From: an uncultured Desulfuromonadales bacterium | GTDB taxonomy: Bacteria > Desulfobacterota > Desulfuromonadia > Geobacterales > Pseudopelobacteraceae | Reading direction: 5' to 3' | Assembly: GCA_903868145.1 (NCBI GenBank) | Contig: CAIPTY010000051.1 | Location: forward strand, 1 to 64,000 | Length of the DNA: 64,000 nucleotides | Shown: one piece after another, positions 4,251 to 61,114 of the stretch | How positions within the stretch are numbered: position 1 is the first letter of the stretch | Layout: every line of letters starts with the position of its first letter | The notes under the pieces: generated by a model | The model's database searches: none | What the model saw: the letters and a program-made list of their open reading frames with translations, nothing else | What the model was told of the DNA's origin: nothing | Translations under genes and position numbers: made by a program

Positions 4251-5390
4251 CTATTTAACGAGTACCCAGTCTCTGTTTTTGATTTCCACCAGGACAAAGG
4301 CATCTTTTCCGAGACCGGCATGATCCTGCGCGGAATAGGAGAATGTCCCGCCGATACCAGCAAATCCTTTTATTTTTTCAAGGTTATCACGAATACCGGC
4401 GGGTGTATCACCGCCTCGTTCGATGGCAGCCTTGATAAGCATGACCGCATCCCAGGCGTGACCGCCAAAGTGGTCTCCCTCTGTCTTGTAATGATTCTGG
4501 TAGTCTTTAACGAAGGCCATCAGTGATTTTCGCTGGCTATCTGATTTTGGAAGGAGGTCGGCGACAATTACCTTGCCGGAAGGCAGTTTAATCCCTTCGG
4601 CTGCGTCACCTGCCAATTCGATGAATTTTTTGGAGGAGACACCGTGGCTCATGAAAATCGGAATTTTAAGACCAAGTTGCCGGGCATTGTTGGCAATCTT
4701 CGCAGGACCGGGATTGGTGCCCCACACAATCAGCGCCTGGGCATGGGAAGCCCGAACCTTCGTCAGTTGAGCGGTCATATCGGAATCATTGGGACCAAAC
4801 GTATCGTCAAACACCAGAGAAATTCCGTATCTGGCAGCTTGAGCCTTGAGCTGTTCGCGTCCTGAAGATCCGAATCCGGTTGATACGGTCAGGATGGCAA
4901 CTTTTGACTGTTTCTGTTTCTGGAGATACTCGAAAATCCATGACACAGCCAGAGAATCGTTCTGTGCGGTCTTGAACACCCATTTTTTCACCGGGTCGGT
5001 GATTTTGCTTCCTGCCGCCAAAGCAATCAGCGGGATATGTTCCTTTTCCACCACGGGAATAATAGCCATGGCTTCCGGCGTCGTGCTGGGACCGATTATG
5101 GCGGTGACCTTGTCGTCCTTGATGAGCTTATTGGCCAGTTGCAACGCCTTGGTTGCGTCACCGGTGGTATCGTAGGAAACCAGTTCCAGCTTGCGTCCAT
5201 TCACTCCGCCGGCCTTGTTGATTTCATCAACCACCATCTTGGCTGTATTACGTTCCGGCTCCCCTAAAGGGGCGCTCGGACCGGATACGGCAAACAGTCC
5301 GCCAATCTTGATCGGCGGAGCGGCAAAAGCTATGGAACACACAAGCAGCACTGAAACCGCTGCCGAACATGAAAAGAATCGACGTATCAT
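4251..5390 (-). CDS. Periplasmic amino-acid-binding protein (LivK-type), copy 1
   Basis: 379 residues with a Sec signal peptide (positively charged MIRR, hydrophobic core, cleavage near AFAA). A type I periplasmic binding fold follows: PIKIGGLFAVSGPSAPLGEPE, then the two Rossmann-like lobes typical of the Leu/Ile/Val-binding family (Peripla_BP_6). It is a paralogue of the gene immediately upstream (5425-6570); the first 250 residues of the two are visibly alignable. It hands substrate to LivHM. Two adjacent binding proteins suggest a broadened substrate range; the neighbouring aryl-pyruvate oxidation genes make aromatic amino acids a plausible ligand, which is inference. Confidence 0.9.
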   Translation of the reverse strand: MIRRFFSCSAAVSVLLVCSIAFAAPPIKIGGLFAVSGPSAPLGEPERNTAKMVVDEINKAGGVNGRKLELVSYDTTGDATKALQLANKLIKDDKVTAIIGPSTTPEAMAIIPVVEKEHIPLIALAAGSKITDPVKKWVFKTAQNDSLAVSWIFEYLQKQKQSKVAILTVSTGFGSSGREQLKAQAARYGISLVFDDTFGPNDSDMTAQLTKVRASHAQALIVWGTNPGPAKIANNARQLGLKIPIFMSHGVSSKKFIELAGDAAEGIKLPSGKVIVADLLPKSDSQRKSLMAFVKDYQNHYKTEGDHFGGHAWDAVMLIKAAIERGGDTPAGIRDNLEKIKGFAGIGGTFSYSAQDHAGLGKDAFVLVEIKNRDWVLVK

Positions 5391-15823: not shown

Positions 15824-16552
15824 GTGCCTTCACAGGATGTAACATATTTCGGGTCATTTATTGCCGGCCTGCTTTCATTCATCTCGCCCTGTGTTCTACC
15901 CCTGATACCGTCATATATCACTTTTATCACAGGCCTTTCCTTTTCCGACCTCCAGTCTGAGCACCCCGGTCGCAAAGTGCGCCAGACCGCCATGCTGAAC
16001 TCACTGGCATTCATCCTTGGTTTTACCCTTGTATTTATTCTGCTGGGCGCCTCGGCCACCTATATAGGCTCCTTTTTCAACCAGCATTCCGACATGATCA
16101 GGAAGGCAGGCGGCATCCTTGTTGTTATATTCGGAATCCATGTTACCGGCCTGATACCCATAAACCTGCTGATGGGGGAAAAAAGGATCGTAATTCATCG
16201 GAAACCGGTCGGCTATCTCGGCGCATTTCTGGTCGGCTTGTCGTTCGCGGCCGGATGGACCCCATGCATCGGCCCGATACTCGCCACAATCCTGATGGTG
16301 GCTGCGACTGAGAACAGTGTGTACCATGGCATCGTGCTGCTGCTGTTTTACTCCCTCGGGCTCGGCATCCCGTTTTTTTTCTCGGCGCTTGCCATGCACC
16401 AGTTCATTGTAGTGTTTCAGCGCTTCAAAAAATATATCCGTCTGTTTGAGATCATCACCGGCATTTTTCTGATATCCATCGGTATTATTATATATTTCAA
16501 CTGGCTATCAAGGTTGTCCGGCTTCTTTGTCTCTGCGTTGGGTGGACAATAA
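15824..16552 (+). CDS. ccdA: Cytochrome c biogenesis protein CcdA
   Basis: 242 residues, six hydrophobic helices. Redox-active Cys are visible in FISPCVLPLIPSYI (helix 1) and GWTPCIGPIL (helix 4), the two conserved CcdA/DsbD-beta positions. A GTG start at 15824 is used. The protein moves electrons from cytoplasmic thioredoxin across the membrane to the TlpA-like lipoprotein encoded just upstream, for haem attachment or oxidase metallation. Stop and next start are adjacent (TAA-ATG), so the downstream gene is coupled. Confidence 0.93.
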   Translation: MPSQDVTYFGSFIAGLLSFISPCVLPLIPSYITFITGLSFSDLQSEHPGRKVRQTAMLNSLAFILGFTLVFILLGASATYIGSFFNQHSDMIRKAGGILVVIFGIHVTGLIPINLLMGEKRIVIHRKPVGYLGAFLVGLSFAAGWTPCIGPILATILMVAATENSVYHGIVLLLFYSLGLGIPFFFSALAMHQFIVVFQRFKKYIRLFEIITGIFLISIGIIIYFNWLSRLSGFFVSALGGQ

Positions 16553-43659: not shown

Positions 43660-44958
43660 TTAGAAAGACAGCAGCCGTTTGGTGAGCCCCGGCACCGCCA
43701 TGTCGATGGTCATGACAATGGTGAGCAGAATCATGATTATCACCGTCATCCAGGCAATGATGTTGAACACCGGGCCATTCACGTAATCGCCCATCAGCTT
43801 CCTGTCGTTAATGAGCATGATCATGAAGAACAGGACGAACGGCAGCACGGCTCCGTTGACTACCTGCGAGATGAACATGATGGTCATGAGCGGTGCGTTT
43901 GGAATCAGGATCAGTACCGCACTGATGACGATGATGATGGTGAAGAGCCAGAAAAACTGCGGCGCCTGTTCAAAGTCCTTGTCGACCCCCGATTCCCACC
44001 CCATACCCTCGCAGATGTAGAACGCAGTGGAGAGCGGCAGGATGCAGGCGCCGAAGAGTGAGGCATTGAAGAGCCCGAAGGCAAACAGCGATGATGCATA
44101 ATTTCCCACCAGCGGTTTCAGCGCCAGAGCCGCATCGGCAGCGGTCTCGATCTTCAGACCGTGCAGATGGATGGTGGAAGCACAGGCCACCATCATGAAG
44201 AACGCCACCACGATCGCCATGATGCATCCAAAGATCACATCTATCCGTGAAAAATTGTACTGCTCGGCGGTGATCCCCTTCTCAACCACGGCGGATTGCT
44301 GGTAGAACTGCATCCAGGGCGCAATGGTTGTGCCGACAATGCCGATCAGAGTCATCAGGTACGCGCTGTCTGATTTGAAAACGGGGGTGACGGAGGCTTT
44401 CAGAACCACATCCCACTTTGGGCCGGCCATAAAAGCGGCCACAGGATAGGCGATGTACACCAGGCAGGCGACCAGGAAAACCTTCTCAACCGTCTTGTAC
44501 GAACCCTTGACGATCAGCAGCCAGACCAGCAGCGCACAGACCGGAACCGACAGGTACTTGCTGATGCCGAAGATCTCCAGACTGGCGGCAATACCCGCGA
44601 ACTCGGAGATTGAATTGCCCATGTTGGTCAGCAGCAGGGCGATCATGACGTAGAAGGTAACCTTGACACCGAACGACTCCCGGATCAGATCCGACAGCCC
44701 CTTGCCGGTGATGGCCCCCATGCGGGCGCACATCTCCTGCACAACGACCAGCGCAATGGTGGTGGGGATCATCATCCAGAGAATTGAATATCCGTAGTTG
44801 GCGGCAGCCAGAGAATAGGTGGTGATTCCTCCGGCGTCGTTGTCCACATTGGCCGTTATGATGCCCGGGCCAAGGATCGCCAGAAACAGCATGATGTTCC
44901 GGGAGTTGATGCCCTTGACCGGCTTGAGGAATCTGTGTGAGGAAATGCCTTCGAACAT
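43660..44958 (-). CDS. NRAMP (SLC11)-family transporter, probably for Mg2+
   Basis: 432 residues, about 11 transmembrane helices. In helix 1 the usual D-P-G-N metal motif is replaced by TANVDNDAGGI, and in helix 6 the usual M-P-H motif is TTIAPWMQFYQ, so the Met that favours transition metals is Ala. That departure matches the NRAMP-related magnesium transporters rather than MntH. It lies 19 bases downstream of the MgtE-like gene, behind an M-box Mg2+ riboswitch, which independently points to Mg2+. A Mn2+ or Fe2+ role cannot be excluded from sequence. Confidence 0.85.
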   Translation of the reverse strand: MFEGISSHRFLKPVKGINSRNIMLFLAILGPGIITANVDNDAGGITTYSLAAANYGYSILWMMIPTTIALVVVQEMCARMGAITGKGLSDLIRESFGVKVTFYVMIALLLTNMGNSISEFAGIAASLEIFGISKYLSVPVCALLVWLLIVKGSYKTVEKVFLVACLVYIAYPVAAFMAGPKWDVVLKASVTPVFKSDSAYLMTLIGIVGTTIAPWMQFYQQSAVVEKGITAEQYNFSRIDVIFGCIMAIVVAFFMMVACASTIHLHGLKIETAADAALALKPLVGNYASSLFAFGLFNASLFGACILPLSTAFYICEGMGWESGVDKDFEQAPQFFWLFTIIIVISAVLILIPNAPLMTIMFISQVVNGAVLPFVLFFMIMLINDRKLMGDYVNGPVFNIIAWMTVIIMILLTIVMTIDMAVPGLTKRLLSF

Positions 44959-44977: not shown

Positions 44978-46240
44978 CTAGCGGCGCTTGTTCTTGAGTA
45001 TCAATGGAAGGTAATGCGCCAGAACATCGTCTACCGTAACGATGCCGGCCATGCGGTTATGCCCGTCCAGTACCGGTACCGCGATCAGGTCGTATTTAGC
45101 AAGGGTTTCCAGCATCTCCTCCGGCTCGGAGTCAATCTGAACCGACTTTATGTTCTCTTCCATTATGTCGGTAATGTGTGTTTCGGGAACCGCCAGCAAC
45201 AGCCCTTTCAGGCTCACTACCCCTTCAAGACGGTCGTCTGCATCCACCACATAGCCGTAGAAAATCGTTTCGATCTCCCGGGCGCTCTCCTTGAAAAGTT
45301 CCAGGGCACGACCGACCGTAATGTCAGAACTGAGGCGGAAGTACTCAGGGTTCATCAGACCGCCCGCAGAATCCTCTTCATGCTCCAGGAGCTCCTGAAT
45401 GTCCTCGGCATCCTCCTGGTCCATCAGCTCAAGCAGCTCCTGGGCCTTCTGCTCCGGCAGGTCGGAGAGTACGTCGGCGGCCTCATCCGGCTCCATTTCT
45501 TCCAGGATATCGGAAACCTCTTCATCATCCATCTGGCTTATGACAACATTCCTCATCTGCGATTCCAGCTCGTAGAGCGTGTCACCGGTCGTCTCGGCGT
45601 CAATCGAGTCCAGAACGGTACGGATATTCTGAATGGGGATGTTTTCAATGATGTCGGCCAGATCGGCCGGGTGCAGTTCGTTGAGCTGGTTGCGGGCAAT
45701 ATTCAAAGCCAGCCTGGAAGAGTTCATCTCCAGGGGCTGAACGTATTCCCAACTGATTTCAGCCTGCGGGATCTCCTTTCCAAGCGTGTGTGCAATCCTC
45801 TCGCCAAAACGTTCATAGCCCAGGCGGCGCAAGAGCCCGCGAAATCCGATGTCCACAGAGAAGATACACAGCTTCTGGTTAAGGTTTCCCAGTTTGATGT
45901 CATTGACCCGGACAACCTTGGCGCCGTCAACATCGACAATCTGCTTGTCCAGAAGATCCCGCTTGACCAGAATGTGGCCTTCCTGCGGTTCATACGGCAT
46001 CAGCCCGGGAGGATGCATGCCGGTTGACGATATGACCACATGCGTGAAGAGGGCAACCTCTGACCAGGGAAGGGTCTTGAGCCCTTTGCGGGAGCGAAAG
46101 ATGATATGCGAGACCTCGGGAAAGACGTCGCCCGGAACCATGATCAAATCGCGCAGAACACCCAGGTCTTCGCCCTTGCTGTTGATCACCGTTCTCCCGA
46201 TCACTGCGCTCAGGTATATTTCATTGAATTCTGTCGTCAT
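44978..46240 (-). CDS. MgtE-N/CBS/PRC-barrel protein (soluble MgtE-like regulator)
   Basis: 420 residues from ATG 46240. Two PRC-barrel-like segments (LSAVIGRTVINSKGEDLGVL and VKRDLLDKQIVDVDGAKVVR), an MgtE N-terminal superhelical domain (LNELHPADLADIIENI, ILEEMEPDEAADVLSDL, rich in acidic residues that sense Mg2+), and a CBS pair (MNPEYFRLSSDITVGRALEL, MEENIKSVQIDSEPEEML). The membrane channel domain of MgtE is absent. It probably senses Mg2+ and gates the NRAMP-type transporter encoded next to it. M-box and terminator precede it. Confidence 0.87.
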   Translation of the reverse strand: MTTEFNEIYLSAVIGRTVINSKGEDLGVLRDLIMVPGDVFPEVSHIIFRSRKGLKTLPWSEVALFTHVVISSTGMHPPGLMPYEPQEGHILVKRDLLDKQIVDVDGAKVVRVNDIKLGNLNQKLCIFSVDIGFRGLLRRLGYERFGERIAHTLGKEIPQAEISWEYVQPLEMNSSRLALNIARNQLNELHPADLADIIENIPIQNIRTVLDSIDAETTGDTLYELESQMRNVVISQMDDEEVSDILEEMEPDEAADVLSDLPEQKAQELLELMDQEDAEDIQELLEHEEDSAGGLMNPEYFRLSSDITVGRALELFKESAREIETIFYGYVVDADDRLEGVVSLKGLLLAVPETHITDIMEENIKSVQIDSEPEEMLETLAKYDLIAVPVLDGHNRMAGIVTVDDVLAHYLPLILKNKRR

Positions 46241-46257
46241 TGCAAACACCCGGGAAC

Positions 46258-46290
46258 GAAAAAGGGTCTTCGGAGGAAGACCCTTGAATA
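46258..46290 (-). terminator. Expression-platform terminator of the M-box
   Basis: On the minus strand AAGGGTCTTC-CTCC-GAAGACCCTT followed by TTT, a perfect 10-bp stem and U-run ending about 20 bases before the start codon. It sits directly after the M-box, as an intrinsic terminator that Mg2+ binding would favour. Confidence 0.85.
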
Positions 46291-46307
46291 CTGAAGGGGT
46301 ACCTTCC

Positions 46308-46465
46308 TCTCTGGTTGACTTTCGGCAGTGCACAACGTAGGTCATAATGACCAGCTACATTAGGTAAAGCCTTAAGCCGACAATACCTGGTATACCCATT
46401 GGCGTCTTTCGACATTTTTGGGCAGTAGCCTGTGTTTGTGCAAACGCCTCTGCTAACGAGGAATA
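46308..46465 (-). promoter_or_regulatory. M-box (ykoK) Mg2+ riboswitch
   Basis: Read on the minus strand, the leader has the conserved blocks of the M-box in order: CGTTAG...GAGGC at the start (46446-46461), CTGCCCAAAAATGTC, GAAAGACGCCAATGGGT (about 46390-46425), CTAATGTAGCTGGTC, GACCTACG and a final CACTGCCGAAAG (about 46320). This aptamer binds several Mg2+ ions and turns off downstream Mg2+ transport genes when Mg2+ is plentiful. A perfect terminator follows. Identification is from remembered consensus, so a covariance-model hit is the formal test. Confidence 0.88.
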
Positions 46466-46473
46466 TTTCATGG

Positions 46474-47038: not shown

Positions 47039-47653
47039 ATGAAACTCGCTGTGAAAATTCTGTTGTTGCTGCTTGTCTCCCTGACAGCGGGTTGCGCAAC
47101 CATGCCGATCGGCCCAGGCGTGAGGGCGTTTCCCACGCCCGGAAAGCCATATGACCTGTTCCTGTCAGAAGATTCGTACTGCAGGCAGGCTGGGGAACGG
47201 CGAATCGGCGTGGCACCCCAGCAGATTGCAGACCAGCATACGGCCACCGGAGCCGTCGTGGGAACAGCCGTCGGCGCGGGGCTTGGTGCGGCCATAGGGG
47301 CGGCATCAGGCAATGCAGGAGCGGGAGCGGCCATTGGCGCCGTAAGCGGATTGATTCTGGGCACTGCGGCGGGTTCTGATTCAGGGCGGATGGAGGGCAG
47401 GGAGGCTCAAAGACGTTACGACGACGCCTATCTGCAATGCATGTATTCTCATGGCAACCAGATTTACACCCCTGACCAGAGATATTATCGTCGTCGGACT
47501 GTCATACGGGATCCGGGCCCGTCAGGTTACGACTATGCCCCTCCCGGTTATTCTGCGCCCTATCCGCCGCCGAATACGCCGCCACCCAATACACCGCCAC
47601 CAAACACCCCGCCACCAAACACCCCTCCGCCACCACCTGCTCTCATTCGCTGA
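47039..47653 (+). CDS. Glycine-zipper outer-membrane-type lipoprotein
   Basis: 204 residues. Lipobox LTAGC (Cys 19) after MKLAVKILLLLLVSLTAG. A central glycine zipper (GAVVGTAVGAGLGAAIGAA, GAGAAIGAVSGLILG) could insert in or associate with a membrane, and the C-terminus is a Pro-rich tail with PPPNT repeated four times from a 15-bp DNA repeat at about 47565-47630. It belongs with the preceding small exported protein in a two-gene unit. The tail repeat may vary in copy number. Confidence 0.8.
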   Translation: MKLAVKILLLLLVSLTAGCATMPIGPGVRAFPTPGKPYDLFLSEDSYCRQAGERRIGVAPQQIADQHTATGAVVGTAVGAGLGAAIGAASGNAGAGAAIGAVSGLILGTAAGSDSGRMEGREAQRRYDDAYLQCMYSHGNQIYTPDQRYYRRRTVIRDPGPSGYDYAPPGYSAPYPPPNTPPPNTPPPNTPPPNTPPPPPALIR

Positions 47654-47815: not shown

Positions 47816-50005
47816 ATGAACACCCCCCTTGACGTGGTTATCGTATGGCATATGCACCAGCCGTACTACAAAGACCCGCTCAAAAACGAATATGCCTTGC
47901 CGTGGACATATCTGCACGGGATAAAAGACTATTTCGACATGCCTGCCATCATCGAGGACACAGTCGGCGCGCGGGCGGTCTTCAATCTGGTGCCATCATT
48001 GATCGAGCAGTTGCTGGACTATGCCAACGGTACTGCTGTTGATCCTTTTCTGATAAAGGGCAAAGCCGCCCCGACGGAGCTGAGCGAAGATGACCGCATA
48101 TTTTTGCTGGAAAACTTTTTCTCCGCCAACCGGCAACGCATGATCGAGCCGTCCCGCCGCTATCTGGAACTGCTCTATATGGCCGGCGAAGGTAAGGCGG
48201 GGAGTGCCCGCGACCGGGTAAAGCATTTCTCCGATCAGGATCTGCTGGATCTTCAGGTCTGGTTTTTCCTGGCCTGGACCGGCCAGGCCGCCCGCCGTAG
48301 ATTCCCCGTATTTTCTGAACTGATCGACAAGGGAGAAAATTACACTGCTGCCGACAAGGAACTGCTCTTTTCCACGCAGCGTGAGCTGTTGCAGGACATT
48401 ATTCCCCTCTACAAGCGCCTTCATGAAGACGGGCGCATTGAGCTGTCAGTGACACCCTACTATCACCCGATCCTGCCGCTACTGTGCGATATTCGTCTGG
48501 CTCAGACGGCCATGCCACGGGTAATCCTCCCCACGACAAGCCTCCGTTGCCCGGAGGATGCCCGCGCCCAGATACGACGGGGCATCGACTATTTCAAGGA
48601 TATTTTCGGTTTCGCACCCCGGGGGATGTGGCCTTCGGAGGGATCGGTCAGCAATGAGGTGCTGGGGATCATCGCCGATTGCGGTATTGACTGGATCGCC
48701 ACGGACGAAGAGATTCTGGCAAAAAGTCTCGATGGCGGCCTGGGTGATCACAAAGAACGCCTCTACCGCCCCTGGCGCTTCAGCTGTCCACAAGGCGAGC
48801 TCGGCACCTTTTTCCGCGATCACCAGTTGTCTGATCTGATCGGATTTACCTATTCCCAGTGGGATGCGAGCCGGGCTGCAGCGGATTTGTGCGGACGTCT
48901 GCACGCTATAAGATCCCACATCGGCAGCGAAGGGAGGGTAGTACCGATCATTCTGGACGGTGAGAACGCCTGGGAATATTATCCTGACAACGCCTACGAT
49001 TTTTTACAGGAAATGTACCGGGGTATCGCCAGATCGCCTCAACTGAATCTGACCACCTGCTCGGATGTGCTTGCTCAGACACGTTTCGACGGCAGACTGC
49101 ACAGCATTTTCCCCGGATCCTGGATCAACGGAAACTACGGAATCTGGATCGGTCACCCCGAAGAGAATCTTGCCTGGGATCTGCTTGCCGGGACCCGCGC
49201 AGCAGCCATTTCTGCCAATCCGGCCGTTGCTGCGGCACTGGAAAGCGGAACCAGGGCGCTTGATCCTTGCGCAGAGATGATCTGCCGGTCGCTGTACGCT
49301 GCCGAAGGGAGCGACTGGTTCTGGTGGTATGGCGATGACCATTTTTCACCCCACAGCGACCGTTTTGACCAGCTTTTCCGCCAGCACCTGATGAATATCT
49401 ACCGTCTCATTGACCAGAACCCGCCACGCGAGCTGCTTGAGCCGATCAAGAAGAGAAACCCTGCCGGGCTTATCCGTGAACCGGCAGCCTTCATAGACCC
49501 CGAAATCAATGGCAGGACTAGCGATTATTTTGAGTGGCTGGCAGCCGGCCTGTATGACCTGACACGCCAGGGGTCGGCCATGCATTCATCAGACCGGATG
49601 CTGCAGAGTTTTTTCTACGGCTACAGCAGCAAGGAACTCTTCTTCCGGATTGATGGCGTTCAGGATTTTTCCCGCCTCTTACGGGAAAATGACGTATTCA
49701 ATCTGCACCTGATTTATGACCGGGAATACCGCCTGCCGCTGCAGATGCGGCATAATGAGGGGCTGCTCCAGTTGCGGGAGAACAATCTCTGGGTACCGAC
49801 ACGGGGATACTGCCGCTGGTACATTTCCAAAACCTGCGAGGTCGCAGTTCCGCTGGATATTCTCAAACTGACACCGGGCAGCAAGCTGTTTGCCTCTGTC
49901 ACCCTGGTGCGCGACAGCGAAGAGATCGGGCGCTGGCCGTCCGATGCACCGCTGATGCTGTACTACGCGGGGGCGGAGATCGAACTGGACAACTGGCTGA
50001 TTTGA
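47816..50005 (+). CDS. Glycoside hydrolase family 57 protein (alpha-glucan-active)
   Basis: 729 residues from ATG 47816; an upstream in-frame ATG at 47771 is less plausible. GH57 motifs: VVIVWHMHQPYYKD (H-Q-P, region 1), PYYHPILPLL (region 2), GMWPSEGSVSNEVL with the nucleophile Glu (region 3), DGENAWEYYPDNAYDFL (region 4) and GSWINGNYGIWIGHPEEN. C-terminal beta-rich part about 500-729. Family enzymes act on alpha-1,4/1,6 glucans retaining the anomer (amylase, branching enzyme, glucanotransferase). Coupled to galT 40 bases downstream, suggesting glycogen or sugar-phosphate metabolism. The exact specificity cannot be read. Confidence 0.9.
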   Translation: MNTPLDVVIVWHMHQPYYKDPLKNEYALPWTYLHGIKDYFDMPAIIEDTVGARAVFNLVPSLIEQLLDYANGTAVDPFLIKGKAAPTELSEDDRIFLLENFFSANRQRMIEPSRRYLELLYMAGEGKAGSARDRVKHFSDQDLLDLQVWFFLAWTGQAARRRFPVFSELIDKGENYTAADKELLFSTQRELLQDIIPLYKRLHEDGRIELSVTPYYHPILPLLCDIRLAQTAMPRVILPTTSLRCPEDARAQIRRGIDYFKDIFGFAPRGMWPSEGSVSNEVLGIIADCGIDWIATDEEILAKSLDGGLGDHKERLYRPWRFSCPQGELGTFFRDHQLSDLIGFTYSQWDASRAAADLCGRLHAIRSHIGSEGRVVPIILDGENAWEYYPDNAYDFLQEMYRGIARSPQLNLTTCSDVLAQTRFDGRLHSIFPGSWINGNYGIWIGHPEENLAWDLLAGTRAAAISANPAVAAALESGTRALDPCAEMICRSLYAAEGSDWFWWYGDDHFSPHSDRFDQLFRQHLMNIYRLIDQNPPRELLEPIKKRNPAGLIREPAAFIDPEINGRTSDYFEWLAAGLYDLTRQGSAMHSSDRMLQSFFYGYSSKELFFRIDGVQDFSRLLRENDVFNLHLIYDREYRLPLQMRHNEGLLQLRENNLWVPTRGYCRWYISKTCEVAVPLDILKLTPGSKLFASVTLVRDSEEIGRWPSDAPLMLYYAGAEIELDNWLI

Positions 50006-51196: not shown

Positions 51197-51775
51197 TTAC
51201 TTTGTTGTTTTTTGTATCCTCGTTGAAGTGATGGAAACTGGATCAGTTTGAATAACCTGCAAAATTTTCGAAATGGCCGGTCGGTCAGCCGGCCCTTGTC
51301 CAATATGATGCAATCGCACAATCCCATCCGGATCAATGAGCACATCGCCACCCCGTTGATAGATATCGCCCTCTGACTTCTTTGGTTTATTGCCTATCAG
51401 AAACTCTTTGAAATACACCTGCCATGTTTTAAGACCCCACACGTCCCAGAACGATGCCGTAAACATTCCATAGCCTTTGTACAGTTCACGTGTCGTATCG
51501 GTAAGGATCGGCCATTGCAGCATGGTGTCTTCGACATAACAGCGTGCAAGAAAATCATTCTCAAATGTCACCACAGCAACATGTACATTAAGCCTGTCAA
51601 GTTCTTCTTCCTGTTCACGCAACTGCGTGAGATGCGCACGGCACGGCAGTCAGCCGAGATGCCGATGAAAGATCAGTAGCAGCCATCGGCCATTGTACTC
51701 TTTCTGGTTGTGCAGAATTCCATTGCTGTCGTAAACAGCAAAAGGCCGTGCGGGTTTACCGGTCAGATCCACCAT
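51197..51775 (-). CDS. Peroxiredoxin/redoxin-like selenoprotein with UxxC motif
   Basis: Full frame of 192 codons from ATG 51775, with an in-frame TGA at codon 42 (51650-51652). The sequence reads RWLLLIFHRHLG-U-LPCRAHLTQLREQE, that is, U-x-x-C at the end of the first strand-helix junction where thioredoxin-fold proteins place their active site. Sequence on both sides of the TGA is coherent redoxin (FAVYDSNG before; VVTFENDFLARCYVEDTML, DPDGIVRLHHIG after). Treating TGA as a stop would leave a 41-residue stub and a truncated protein. Sec insertion needs SelB and a SECIS hairpin. It follows the TVP38 gene by 4 bases. Confidence 0.82.
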
Positions 51776-51779
51776 AATG

Positions 51780-52463
51780 TTACCTCGATTCCTTCTTTAT
51801 TTTGATTTTGTTGTACAACGCCGGTATCAGTGCAAAGAGTCCGAGAAGCGCAAAAGAGCCCAGCACCCGTGGCGATGCGATGCCGGAGAGTGAGTCAATG
51901 GTAGCCAGACTGGCGCCGGCATTGACATAGACGAATCCGCCGGGGATGATCCCCAGCATGGTGCCGATAAAGAACGTGCGTAATGGCAGACGGGTCAGAC
52001 CGGCCGCCAGGTTGATCAGAAAGAAAGGAAACACCGGCACCAGCCGCAGGAACAGCAGGTAATTGAATCCCTGGGTTTCAAGCTCCCGGTTCATCCCCTC
52101 CAGTTTGCTGCCGAACGTGTTCATCACAGTGTCCCGTAACAGATAGCGGGTCACCAGAAAAGCCAGGGTCGCGCCGATCGTTGCGGCAATGTTGGCATAA
52201 ACAGTTCCCATAATCGAGCCGAAGATGGCACCGGCCGCCAGCGACAAAATGGCAGCGCCGGGGAGGGACAGGGCGGTCTGGACGATGTAGATCACCATGA
52301 AGCCGGCCACCATGACCAGTTTGTGTGCGGCGTAGTAATCCTGCAACGTCTGACGGTTGGCTTTAAGTGCAGCCAAGGTCAGAAAACGCTGCAGATCGAA
52401 GGAGAAGAAAAGTGCAATTACAGCAGTACCAACAAGTGCGAGGATCATTTTTTTTGAGTTCAT
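51780..52463 (-). CDS. TVP38/TMEM64 (SNARE-associated/VTT) family membrane protein
   Basis: 227 residues, five or six hydrophobic helices. The VTT-domain signature is visible as LPGAAILSLAAGAIFGSIMGTVYANIA and RLVPVFPFFLINLAAGLTRL with PLRTFFIGTMLGIIPGGFVYV. Family members are thought to move lipids or small solutes. It is sandwiched between the FAD disulfide reductase and the selenoprotein with 4-base gaps, an arrangement repeated in several bacteria with mercuric-reductase-like partners; a redox-linked role is inferred. Confidence 0.88.
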   Translation of the reverse strand: MNSKKMILALVGTAVIALFFSFDLQRFLTLAALKANRQTLQDYYAAHKLVMVAGFMVIYIVQTALSLPGAAILSLAAGAIFGSIMGTVYANIAATIGATLAFLVTRYLLRDTVMNTFGSKLEGMNRELETQGFNYLLFLRLVPVFPFFLINLAAGLTRLPLRTFFIGTMLGIIPGGFVYVNAGASLATIDSLSGIASPRVLGSFALLGLFALIPALYNKIKIKKESR

Positions 52464-52467
52464 CTGT

Positions 52468-53991
52468 TTAGCCTCTCTGCCATTTCAGCCAGCCGGACAG
52501 GATTTTCTTCGCAAACGGCGTCAGCCGCGTCCGGTTGTAGGCATCGGCCAGCCGTTTGATAACCTCGGCCTGGGTCGGGTAGGGGTGGATTGTTTTCCCA
52601 ATGGCCGAGATTCCCAGGCCGTTGGTAATGGCCAGAGAAAACTCGTTGATCATCTCACCGGCATGGCGGGCGACAATGGTGGCGCCCAGGATCTTGTCCG
52701 TCCCCTTGCGCAGATGGACTCTTGCAAATCCTTCGGTTTCGCCGTCAAGCAGCGCCCGATCGATGTCGGACAAAGGGACGGTGAGCGTGGTTACATCGAT
52801 ACCCTTTTCCTGTGCGGCCTGTTCATACATACCCACGTGGGCAATCTCCGGATCGGTGTAGGTGCACCACGGGATGGTGAGCGCAGATGTTTTCTGCCGC
52901 CCCATGAATAGGGCATTGGCAATCAGGATGCGGGCCAGGGCGTCGGCGGTATGGGTGAATTTGAAGGGGAAGCAGATGTCGCCGGCGGCATAGATATTCG
53001 GATTTGAGGTTTGCAGCGTATCACTGACTTTAATGCCTGTCTTGTCGTATGCAATGCGGGCTTTTTCCAGCCCAAGCCCTTCGATGTTGGGTGCCCGCCC
53101 GATACCAACCAGGATTTCATCGGCAACGACATCGACGGTCTGTCCATTTTGCTCAAGGCGCAGGACTTTATGGCGGCCTCGTTTCTCTACCCTGCGGATC
53201 TCGACGCCCAGTTTCAGATCAATCCCTTCACGAACAAAAGCAGTGTGCAGTACCTCCGCCGCATCTTCGTCCTCCCGTCCCAGGATATGCGGGCCGCGTT
53301 CGATGAGAGTCACCTTGCTGCCGAAGCGGGAAAAAGATTGAGCCAGTTCGCAGCCGATGGGGCCGGCCCCGATCACCGTCAGGCGTGGCGGCAATTCGGT
53401 CAGGGAAAATATGTTTTCATTGGTCAGGTAGCCGACCTCGGCAAGGCCTGGAATTGGAGGTGCGGCGGCGCGGGCACCGGTGCAGACGGCTGCTTTTTTG
53501 AAAGAGAGTTTTTTTCCGTCCACCTCTACACCGTCAGGCCCGGTAAAGGTTCCCTGCCCGATGAAGACATCCACGCCCAACTCATCGCGGAAACGGCGGG
53601 CCGAATCGTGATGGCTGATATCGGCCCTCAATCGGCGCATCTGCTGCATTGCCGCTGAAAAATCGAAGCTGATCGTGTTGCCGCCCTGCACACCAAACCT
53701 GGCGCCGTTGCGGGCATCGAACAGCGCCCGTGATGCCCGGATCACCCCTTTCGACGGGACACAGCCGACGTTCAGGCAGTCGCCCCCCATCAGGTGACGC
53801 TCGATAAGCGCAACTTTTGCTCCCAGACCCGCGGCACCGGCAGCGCAGATCAACCCTGCCGCACCCGCGCCAATTACCACCAGATTGTAACGCCCGGTCG
53901 GCTCGGGATTCACCCACTCCGAGGGATGTACGTTTTCGGTCAGTTCCCTGTTCTCAGGTGTATCTGGTGGGACGATTATCGGATTGATCAT
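52468..53991 (-). CDS. FAD-dependent pyridine nucleotide-disulfide oxidoreductase (mercuric reductase-like)
   Basis: 507 residues. FAD site VVIGAGAAGLICAAGAAGLG, redox-active disulfide GGDCLNVGCVPSKGVI, NAD(P)H site LTVIGAGPIGCELAQSFSR and the C-terminal HPYPTQAEV (active-site His). It lacks the N-terminal heavy-metal domain and terminal Cys pair of true MerA, so it reduces an unknown disulfide or quinone. First gene of a minus-strand operon with TVP38 and the selenoredoxin: the reductase could supply electrons to the redoxin. Confidence 0.9.
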   Translation of the reverse strand: MINPIIVPPDTPENRELTENVHPSEWVNPEPTGRYNLVVIGAGAAGLICAAGAAGLGAKVALIERHLMGGDCLNVGCVPSKGVIRASRALFDARNGARFGVQGGNTISFDFSAAMQQMRRLRADISHHDSARRFRDELGVDVFIGQGTFTGPDGVEVDGKKLSFKKAAVCTGARAAAPPIPGLAEVGYLTNENIFSLTELPPRLTVIGAGPIGCELAQSFSRFGSKVTLIERGPHILGREDEDAAEVLHTAFVREGIDLKLGVEIRRVEKRGRHKVLRLEQNGQTVDVVADEILVGIGRAPNIEGLGLEKARIAYDKTGIKVSDTLQTSNPNIYAAGDICFPFKFTHTADALARILIANALFMGRQKTSALTIPWCTYTDPEIAHVGMYEQAAQEKGIDVTTLTVPLSDIDRALLDGETEGFARVHLRKGTDKILGATIVARHAGEMINEFSLAITNGLGISAIGKTIHPYPTQAEVIKRLADAYNRTRLTPFAKKILSGWLKWQRG

Positions 53992-59740: not shown

Positions 59741-61114
59741 ATGCCTTTGCACAGCATTATGGTGGTGGATGACAACGTGGATATGCTCACGGTCTATGGC
59801 CGTGTCCTGACGGCTGAAGGATTCGAAGTGTTCACCGCCGCCACCGGGAGCGAATGCCTGAAACAGATTGAAACGGTCTGTCCGGACATTTTTCTGCTGG
59901 ACGTGATGTTGCCCGACTGGAACGGCATCGATCTGGTGCGGGAGATCAAGGGTCGGACGGAATGCGCCAATAGCTTTATTGTCCTCCTTTCCGGCCTGAT
60001 GACAGACAGCGACTGCAAGGTCAGGGGACTGGACGCCGGGGCGCTGGATTATCTGGCCCGTCCGATCCCCAACAAAGAATTGGTTGCCAAGGTCAAATCG
60101 CTCGTCAAGGTCATGGAATTCCAGGAATCTCTGGTGAATATCAGCAAAAAATTTGAGGCACTCAGCATTACGGATGGCCTGACCGGAATCGCCAATCGAC
60201 GCTGTTTTGACGAAGTAATCGCTCAGGAGCACTCCCGGCATGCCCGTTCGGAGGGCAAACTTTCACTGATCATGCTGGACATCGACCTCTTCAAATCATT
60301 CAACGACCACTACGGGCATGTCTGCGGCGACGACTGCCTGCGCAGGATAGCCAAGGTCATCGACGAAAGCACGGCACGGCCGGGCGATCTGGTAGCCCGC
60401 TATGGCGGCGAGGAATTCGCCTGCATCCTGCCGGAGACGGATCAGCGCGGGGCTCTGCTGATCGCTGAAAAAATACGGCAGGCCATTCTTGATCTGGCCA
60501 TACCCCATGCCTGGTCGAATATAGCCGAATGCGTAAGCGCCAGCCTGGGAGTCGTAACGAGCCACTGCGGCTCGGACAGCTCGGTGACGGAGATCGTTCA
60601 CCGGGCGGATGAACTGCTCTACAAGGCCAAATCCCTTGGCCGCAACCGGGTGGAGTGCAACGAACTGATGCACACGCCGGAACAGATTCACACACATCTT
60701 GTGCAACTGGTCTGGAAAGACTCCTTCAGTTCCCGCAACGACCTGATCGATTCCCAGCATCAACTCCTTTTCCATGACACCAACGAACTGCTGGAAGCCA
60801 TTATTCTGGCTCGTCCGAAAGACGAACTGAATTCCATTGTCAATCGCCTTCTTTCCGATGCTGCACAGCACTTTAACGACGAAGAATGCGTCCTTGGCGA
60901 GATCGGTTTTCCCGGTTCGGCAAAACACGCCGCTGAACATGCGCGATTGCTGGTCGATGGTCGCAAACTGGCGAGGAAATTCACTGCAGACGCGCTTAAC
61001 GTCGGCGATATCTTTCAGTTTATGGTTCACGAGCTCGTCATGCAGCATATGCTCGGAGCCGACCGTGATTTTTTCCCGTATACATGCACTGCGCCACAGA
61101 GGGGAGACACCTGA
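59741..61114 (+). CDS. REC-GGDEF-bacteriohemerythrin protein (putative diguanylate cyclase)
   Basis: 457 residues. REC 1-125 with phosphoacceptor in LLDVMLPDWNG; GGDEF domain about 150-305 with active site G222-G-E-E-F226 and inhibitory site R213-x2-D216; C-terminal hemerythrin domain about 330-450 (LIDSQHQLLFHDTNELLEAI, QHFNDEECVL, HAAEHARLL, HELVMQHMLGADRDFF), whose His/Glu/Asp set binds a di-iron O2 site. Phosphorylation and O2 could jointly tune cyclic-di-GMP (or cyclic-AMP-GMP) synthesis. Begins right after the kinase stop (TAA-ATG). Confidence 0.92.
   Translation: MPLHSIMVVDDNVDMLTVYGRVLTAEGFEVFTAATGSECLKQIETVCPDIFLLDVMLPDWNGIDLVREIKGRTECANSFIVLLSGLMTDSDCKVRGLDAGALDYLARPIPNKELVAKVKSLVKVMEFQESLVNISKKFEALSITDGLTGIANRRCFDEVIAQEHSRHARSEGKLSLIMLDIDLFKSFNDHYGHVCGDDCLRRIAKVIDESTARPGDLVARYGGEEFACILPETDQRGALLIAEKIRQAILDLAIPHAWSNIAECVSASLGVVTSHCGSDSSVTEIVHRADELLYKAKSLGRNRVECNELMHTPEQIHTHLVQLVWKDSFSSRNDLIDSQHQLLFHDTNELLEAIILARPKDELNSIVNRLLSDAAQHFNDEECVLGEIGFPGSAKHAAEHARLLVDGRKLARKFTADALNVGDIFQFMVHELVMQHMLGADRDFFPYTCTAPQRGDT

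Follow-up and report, generated by a model that had tools for sequence, protein, structure and literature searches.

An in-frame TGA in a SelL-related redoxin gene of an uncultured Desulfuromonadales bacterium is predicted to encode selenocysteine

The window analysed here is a 64,000-nucleotide stretch of contig CAIPTY010000051.1 from an uncultured Desulfuromonadales bacterium (GenBank assembly GCA_903868145.1). On its minus strand, the coding sequence of a redoxin is interrupted by a TGA (Table 1). The locus raises the question of whether this TGA is read as selenocysteine and, if so, how the resulting protein might be supplied with electrons. On the plus strand, the bases at the interruption read TCA. 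Translation of the minus strand revealed a single internal stop, codon 42, before the frame was closed by TAA, and the 150 codons 3′ of the TGA were open and conserved. The residues around the TGA are FHRHLG-U-LPCRAH, which places U-L-P-C at the active site of the fold. The Pfam domain AhpC-TSA (PF00578) matched residues 6–154, and both this match and that of Redoxin (PF08534) spanned the TGA; AhpC-TSA_2 (PF13911) matched as well. The claim in the initial annotation that redoxin sequence continues on both sides of the TGA thus held, in that one frame carries a domain match across the stop.

Table 1. Features of the window discussed in the text, and selD of the same genome
Feature	Coordinates	Strand	Details
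Nramp-family transporter	43660–44958	−	follows the gene with MgtE N-domain and CBS matches
Protein with MgtE N-domain and CBS matches; MgtE membrane domain not matched	44978–46345	−	after the M-box
M-box magnesium riboswitch	46300–46467	−	156.8 bits
SelL-related redoxin (predicted selenoprotein)	51197–51775	−	192 aa, U42-L-P-C45; ATG at 51775, TAA at 51197–51199
SECIS-type hairpin UCACGC-AGUU-GCGUGA	51615–51630	−	6 bp; loop from 25 nt past the UGA
In-frame TGA, codon 42, almost certainly read as selenocysteine	51650–51652	−	translation, conservation
VTT-domain (DedA/TVP38-type) membrane protein	51780–52463	−	227 aa; PF09335, E 6.7e-28
Class I pyridine nucleotide-disulfide oxidoreductase (PRK06370-type)	52468–53991	−	507 aa; NF004991, 838.8 bits, cut-off 620
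selD with one in-frame TGA	G000:C80:62089–63015 (locus L023)		context AAGUAAKLGP

The initial annotation had also warned that a gene caller would take a short protein from 51622 and miss the active site. The mechanical ORF is indeed 51197–51622, a 141-aa frame with a TTG start that leaves the active site out. That this shorter frame is the real product, with the TGA closing an upstream peptide, would explain the presence of the mechanical ORF. Such a product would lack the first strands and the active site, which are among the most conserved parts of the protein, and a Shine-Dalgarno-like stretch, GAGGT, upstream of the ATG, together with the operon spacing, favours initiation at the ATG. We consider a short product exceedingly improbable.

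To evaluate the conservation of the TGA, we compared the gene with its relatives in several samples. In 57 genomes, comprising the source genome and relatives, there were ten strong matches including that of the window (E < 1e-65), and a TGA lay inside all of them; one of the ten was scored as having two because the gene also ends in TGA. The gene was above the family cut-off in 13 of the 76 genomes sampled from the family; of the 395 sampled from the phylum, 8 matched at 1e-15, with one TGA in each of the eight. A scan of named genomes yielded 35 loci, every one from a record with a metagenome-assembly title. The scan used two patterns, one of them with cysteine at the selenocysteine position, and so favoured cysteine forms, if anything. 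Removal of 11 identical copies and of one locus without a recognisable motif frame (L098) from the 51 loci left 39 distinct close relatives, in 38 of which the codon was TGA. In the remaining relative, from an acidobacterium (L097), it was TGC, encoding cysteine.

The TGC in this acidobacterial relative is what might be expected if the window carried a nonsense mutation, or a miscalled TGC or TGT, in a former cysteine redoxin. However, the same TGA recurred in 38 of the 39 distinct relatives, across many assemblies, and as a single TGA in all 13 carriers of the family sample, and the codons after the TGA were as constrained as those before it. Both a pseudogene and a sequencing error were rejected on this recurrence, and we assign such explanations a negligible probability. 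Overall, the length of the open frame, the conservation of the 3′ codons and the retention of the TGA in relatives indicate that the TGA is not a chance occurrence.

Wholesale reassignment of TGA was likewise rejected, as TGA serves as an ordinary stop elsewhere in the window; for example, the GH57 gene ends at the TGA at 50003–50005. A scan of the window returned 13 TGA-interrupted frames with a nearby cysteine, the redoxin included. Two further places among the 13, at 16309 and 61112, were inspected, and signs of a selenoprotein were absent from both; the TGA at 61112 terminates an ORF overlapping the start that follows.

We then searched the source assembly (3.8 Mb, 97% complete) for the genes of selenocysteine incorporation, and all four named for checking in the initial annotation, selA, selB, selC and selD, were found. 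SelA (602 bits), SelB (362 bits) and SelD (371 bits) each scored above the family cut-off. The tRNA-Sec scored 71.5 bits and was named tRNA-SeC by ARAGORN, with the anticodon TCA (UCA). The in-frame TGA of selD, the second such codon in this genome, falls at a known type of selenoprotein site, and SelD is probably itself a selenoprotein in this genome. Among the 35 named genomes that carry the redoxin, SelB was above cut-off in 30. The other five, which are metagenome assemblies, comprised three with no match at 1e-50 and two with matches below the cut-off.

The sequence following the TGA was examined for a SECIS element, whose presence just after the TGA had been proposed as a check of the prediction. 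A hairpin was found, with covariation. As a single sequence, the window's own post-TGA region folded no better than its shuffles (z −0.51 to 0.49), and the hairpin was therefore judged on alignments. In the close set, columns 22–28 and 33–39 after the UGA formed a seven-pair helix in which 96.1% of the cells paired; the stem has 6 bp in the window gene and 7 in many relatives. Registers slid from this position were 15–60% paired, and RNAalifold recovered the same helix unaided. Changes on both sides of a pair occurred in 26 cells, over three pairs, and the pair 25–36 was seen as AU, UG, GC, GU and UA. The covariation score was 0.312 as compared to 0.097 in shuffles, none of 500 of which scored as high.

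The codons that encode the hairpin were also constrained. Leu52, which lies inside it, was encoded by TTG in all 38 selenocysteine forms, as compared to 13.6% of 760 other leucine codons, and third-position diversity was 0.27 in the hairpin codons versus 0.56 downstream. The loop was AGUU in 57 of 64 selenocysteine rows of a wider set, described below, and AGGU in four. Six of these 64 rows paired three or fewer of the seven positions in this register, and the cysteine forms of the same set kept just 3, 3 and 4 of the seven pairs. The bSECIS model, as given in the portion of PMC13188914 consulted, comprises a 3–9-nt loop with G in one of its first two positions, a 4–16-bp stem, a distance of 16–37 nt from the UGA and an MFE of at most −7.5. 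Against these values, the window hairpin has a loop of 4 nt (AGUU) with G second, 6 bp, a distance of 25 nt and a bare energy of −7.9 kcal/mol.

These data bear on the possibility that the TGA is read through by a near-cognate tRNA as tryptophan or cysteine rather than as selenocysteine. At the protein level, the two readings are not told apart here. Nevertheless, the selenocysteine machinery is complete, the hairpin covaries and is degraded in the cysteine forms, and homologues replace the selenocysteine position by cysteine only. Near-cognate readthrough is accordingly very improbable. From the sequence evidence, residue 42 of the redoxin is almost certainly selenocysteine, and the product of the gene is very probably a full-length selenoredoxin, made by SelB-type recoding of the UGA. 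We regard as settled the status of a UGA at which plain gene calling would split the gene in two.

To place the redoxin among known proteins, we compared it with curated families. NCBIfam NF040769, 'SelL-related redox protein', matched residues 8–175 with 185.6 bits (cut-off 120), and also matched all 39 close relatives and all 26 members of a broader protein alignment, drawn from the 67 rows below, at E ≤ 0.001. The match was full-length, and nothing was found that sets the window redoxin apart from this family; its close group within NF040769 consists mainly of UxxC forms from Geobacteraceae and Desulfobacterota. The selenoprotein prediction of the initial annotation thus stood, supported by the machinery, the SECIS hairpin and the cysteine homologues, with the qualification that the family is not unknown but already curated. 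Selenoproteins termed SelL were reportedly described by Shchedrina et al. in 2007 and are said to carry UxxU. The window redoxin is like them in belonging to the same redoxin class, with selenocysteine at the first motif position, and differs in having cysteine at the second; SelL proper, with UxxU and a diselenide, was rejected on the U-L-P-C motif. According to the portion of PMC3316567 consulted, one SECIS element suffices for both selenocysteines of SelL. The catalogued prokaryotic 'Prx-like thiol:disulfide oxidoreductase' (pfam00578, UxxC or UxxU), as it appears in parts of PMC9312934 and PMC13188914, has the same Pfam domain and motif; the window redoxin is likened to it by description, independently of its example WP_010940744.1. 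A Prx-like selenoprotein in Geobacter species is also reported in the consulted part of PMC1794560. The window redoxin is therefore an addition to a recognised family, and we do not claim a new family of selenoproteins.

The predicted structure is consistent with this assignment. An AlphaFold2 model based on 39 sequences had a mean pLDDT of 85 and a pTM of 0.80, and its helix 43–54 begins right after U42. Foldseek matched the model to Prx, Bcp and AhpC folds and to human prostamide/prostaglandin F synthase (PGFS; 9us9, 9usa), the nearest solved full-length relative of the redoxin. In a search with a profile of 26 diverse members, PGFS ranked first (E 1.6e-19, residues 17–180 of 198). Its cysteine pair aligned with U42 and C45; C44 and C47 are given as mutated residues in the title of entry 9usa. 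Together with the U-L-P-C motif, this alignment agrees with the initial annotation's placement of the TGA at the active-site position. A GDxxQxGG stretch is common to both proteins. The homology to PRXL2/SelU proteins, including human PGFS, is nearly full-length with the redox pair aligned, although PGFS and the window redoxin are only about 20% identical in the Foldseek alignment, and prostaglandins are not expected to be substrates in this bacterium. In classical peroxiredoxins, the motif is Thr-x-x-Cys, with the threonine three residues before the peroxidatic cysteine. Residue 39 of the redoxin is a histidine, invariant in 39 rows, and a classical peroxiredoxin was rejected. By fold and motif, the best reading is that the protein would work like a PRXL2/SelU or SelL redoxin, with a thioredoxin-like pair. 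SelU3 proteins commonly go by the PGFS name, according to the portion of PMC3473315 consulted.

In redoxins, cysteine is usually the rule and selenocysteine the exception. We extended the comparison to the acidobacterial phylum, in which 28 of 396 genomes matched at 1e-15, at 30 places. These places read as UxxC, UxxU and CxxC variants of RHxxUxxC; most were UxxC and few were CxxC. Two of the 30 loci, L102 (the same gene as L097) and L129 (a fragment), were omitted from the resulting set of 67 rows, which comprised 59 UxxC, 5 UxxU and 3 CxxC forms. Selenocysteine was thus present in 64 of 67 rows, and the cysteine homologues sought by the initial annotation were present in three (L097, L121 and L125). 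In the five UxxU relatives, all acidobacterial (L105, L106, L109, L123 and L126), the two TGA codons are nine bases apart, and in most of them a hairpin occupies the same register. In a tree of the 67 rows, the three cysteine rows were separate single tips among selenocysteine rows. This topology, rooted at the midpoint only and with a long cysteine branch included, fits an ancestral selenocysteine that changed to cysteine repeatedly; that selenocysteine can arise more than once limits this reading. The genome of L097 (G475) has SelB above cut-off, so loss of SelB does not account for its cysteine form. Selenocysteine as the rule and cysteine as a scattered exception reverse the usual picture for redoxins.

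The genomic context of the redoxin was then examined with respect to its electron supply. The operon partners named in the initial annotation, a disulfide reductase and a VTT membrane protein, were confirmed by Pfam and NCBIfam matches (Table 1). The genes of the flavoprotein, the VTT protein and the redoxin are separated by 4 nt each, with the redoxin last in the operon. The flavoprotein has the redox-disulfide motif GGDCLNVGC and, near its C-terminus, HPYPTQAE. MerA has a C-terminal cysteine pair; the last cysteine of the flavoprotein is residue 376 of 507 and its TIGR02053 score of 395.4 bits is below the cut-off of 454.45, so MerA was rejected. The undecaprenyl-phosphate transporter UptA was similarly rejected for the VTT protein (NF052604, 25 bits versus a cut-off of 250). 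PADLOC matched neither the redoxin nor the VTT protein and gave a single weak, trivial match for the flavoprotein. No relative of the redoxin was found in a scan of viral contigs or by tblastn against plasmids.

To our knowledge, no electron donor has been assigned to SelL/SelU-type proteins; the operon suggests one, as well as a possible link to the membrane. The pairing of flavoprotein and VTT protein is itself already known: in the consulted portion of PMC10127716, pyridine nucleotide-disulfide oxidoreductase domains are the commonest fusions of COG0398 DedA proteins. The window resembles these fusions in its two partner domains, the VTT gene being likened to them by domain, and differs in that the genes are separate and adjacent, with a selenoredoxin as the third gene. 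An operon of flavoprotein, VTT protein and selenoredoxin was not named in the titles or abstract openings of the papers retrieved on related selenoproteins.

Whether the flavoprotein serves the redoxin is evenly balanced. The same three-gene order occurs in five relatives (L065–L069), which the tree groups with the window, and the 4-nt spacing also speaks for a functional association. Moreover, the flavoprotein recurs in Acidobacteriota beside a cysteine form, L097, where it lies directly upstream with overlapping reading frames (around 4960–5030), and beside a UxxU form, L123, where it is just downstream. On the other hand, the selenoprotein may be fed by the general thioredoxin system, with the flavoprotein and VTT protein employed otherwise, for example in membrane lipid or quinone chemistry. 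Most relatives' loci lack both neighbours, a strong flavoprotein match occurred in the flanks of 6 of 35 loci (L065–L069 and L097; flank lengths differ), and clustering of neighbours in the other loci identified no gene common to most. In addition, flavoprotein–VTT fusions without any redoxin are known from the consulted part of PMC10127716. We give the thioredoxin system slightly less than an even chance of being the donor, and the neighbouring flavoprotein an even one in this clade.

The following mechanism is the best reading. The hairpin 25 nt downstream of the UGA would recruit SelB with Sec-tRNA-Sec, as in ordinary bacterial recoding. U42 and C45 would make up a U-x-x-C pair where the first long helix of the thioredoxin/peroxiredoxin fold begins, and should alternate between selenol/thiol and selenenylsulfide. 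The substrate reduced by the redoxin is probably either a disulfide or a peroxide, the latter perhaps a lipid peroxide or an endoperoxide. If the flavoprotein is the donor, electrons would pass from NAD(P)H to the flavoprotein, on to the selenoredoxin and finally to the peroxide or disulfide, close to the membrane that houses the VTT protein. A dedicated, membrane-associated relay of this kind, in which the VTT protein would provide or transport a lipid substrate, is a speculative and rather unlikely extension. Were it true, a SelL/SelU-type redoxin would have an electron donor dedicated to it, and this in a family whose ancestral residue appears to be selenocysteine, repeatedly replaced by cysteine.

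Two other features of the window were recorded. The M-box and the two genes that follow it look like a magnesium-regulated, Nramp-type transporter pair. The ORF start listed at 46345 lies within the riboswitch, and the true start is therefore probably further downstream. Finally, a 15-base tandem repeat of 4.1 copies (47564–47625, plus strand) lies where a small Gly-zipper protein has its proline-rich C-terminal tail.
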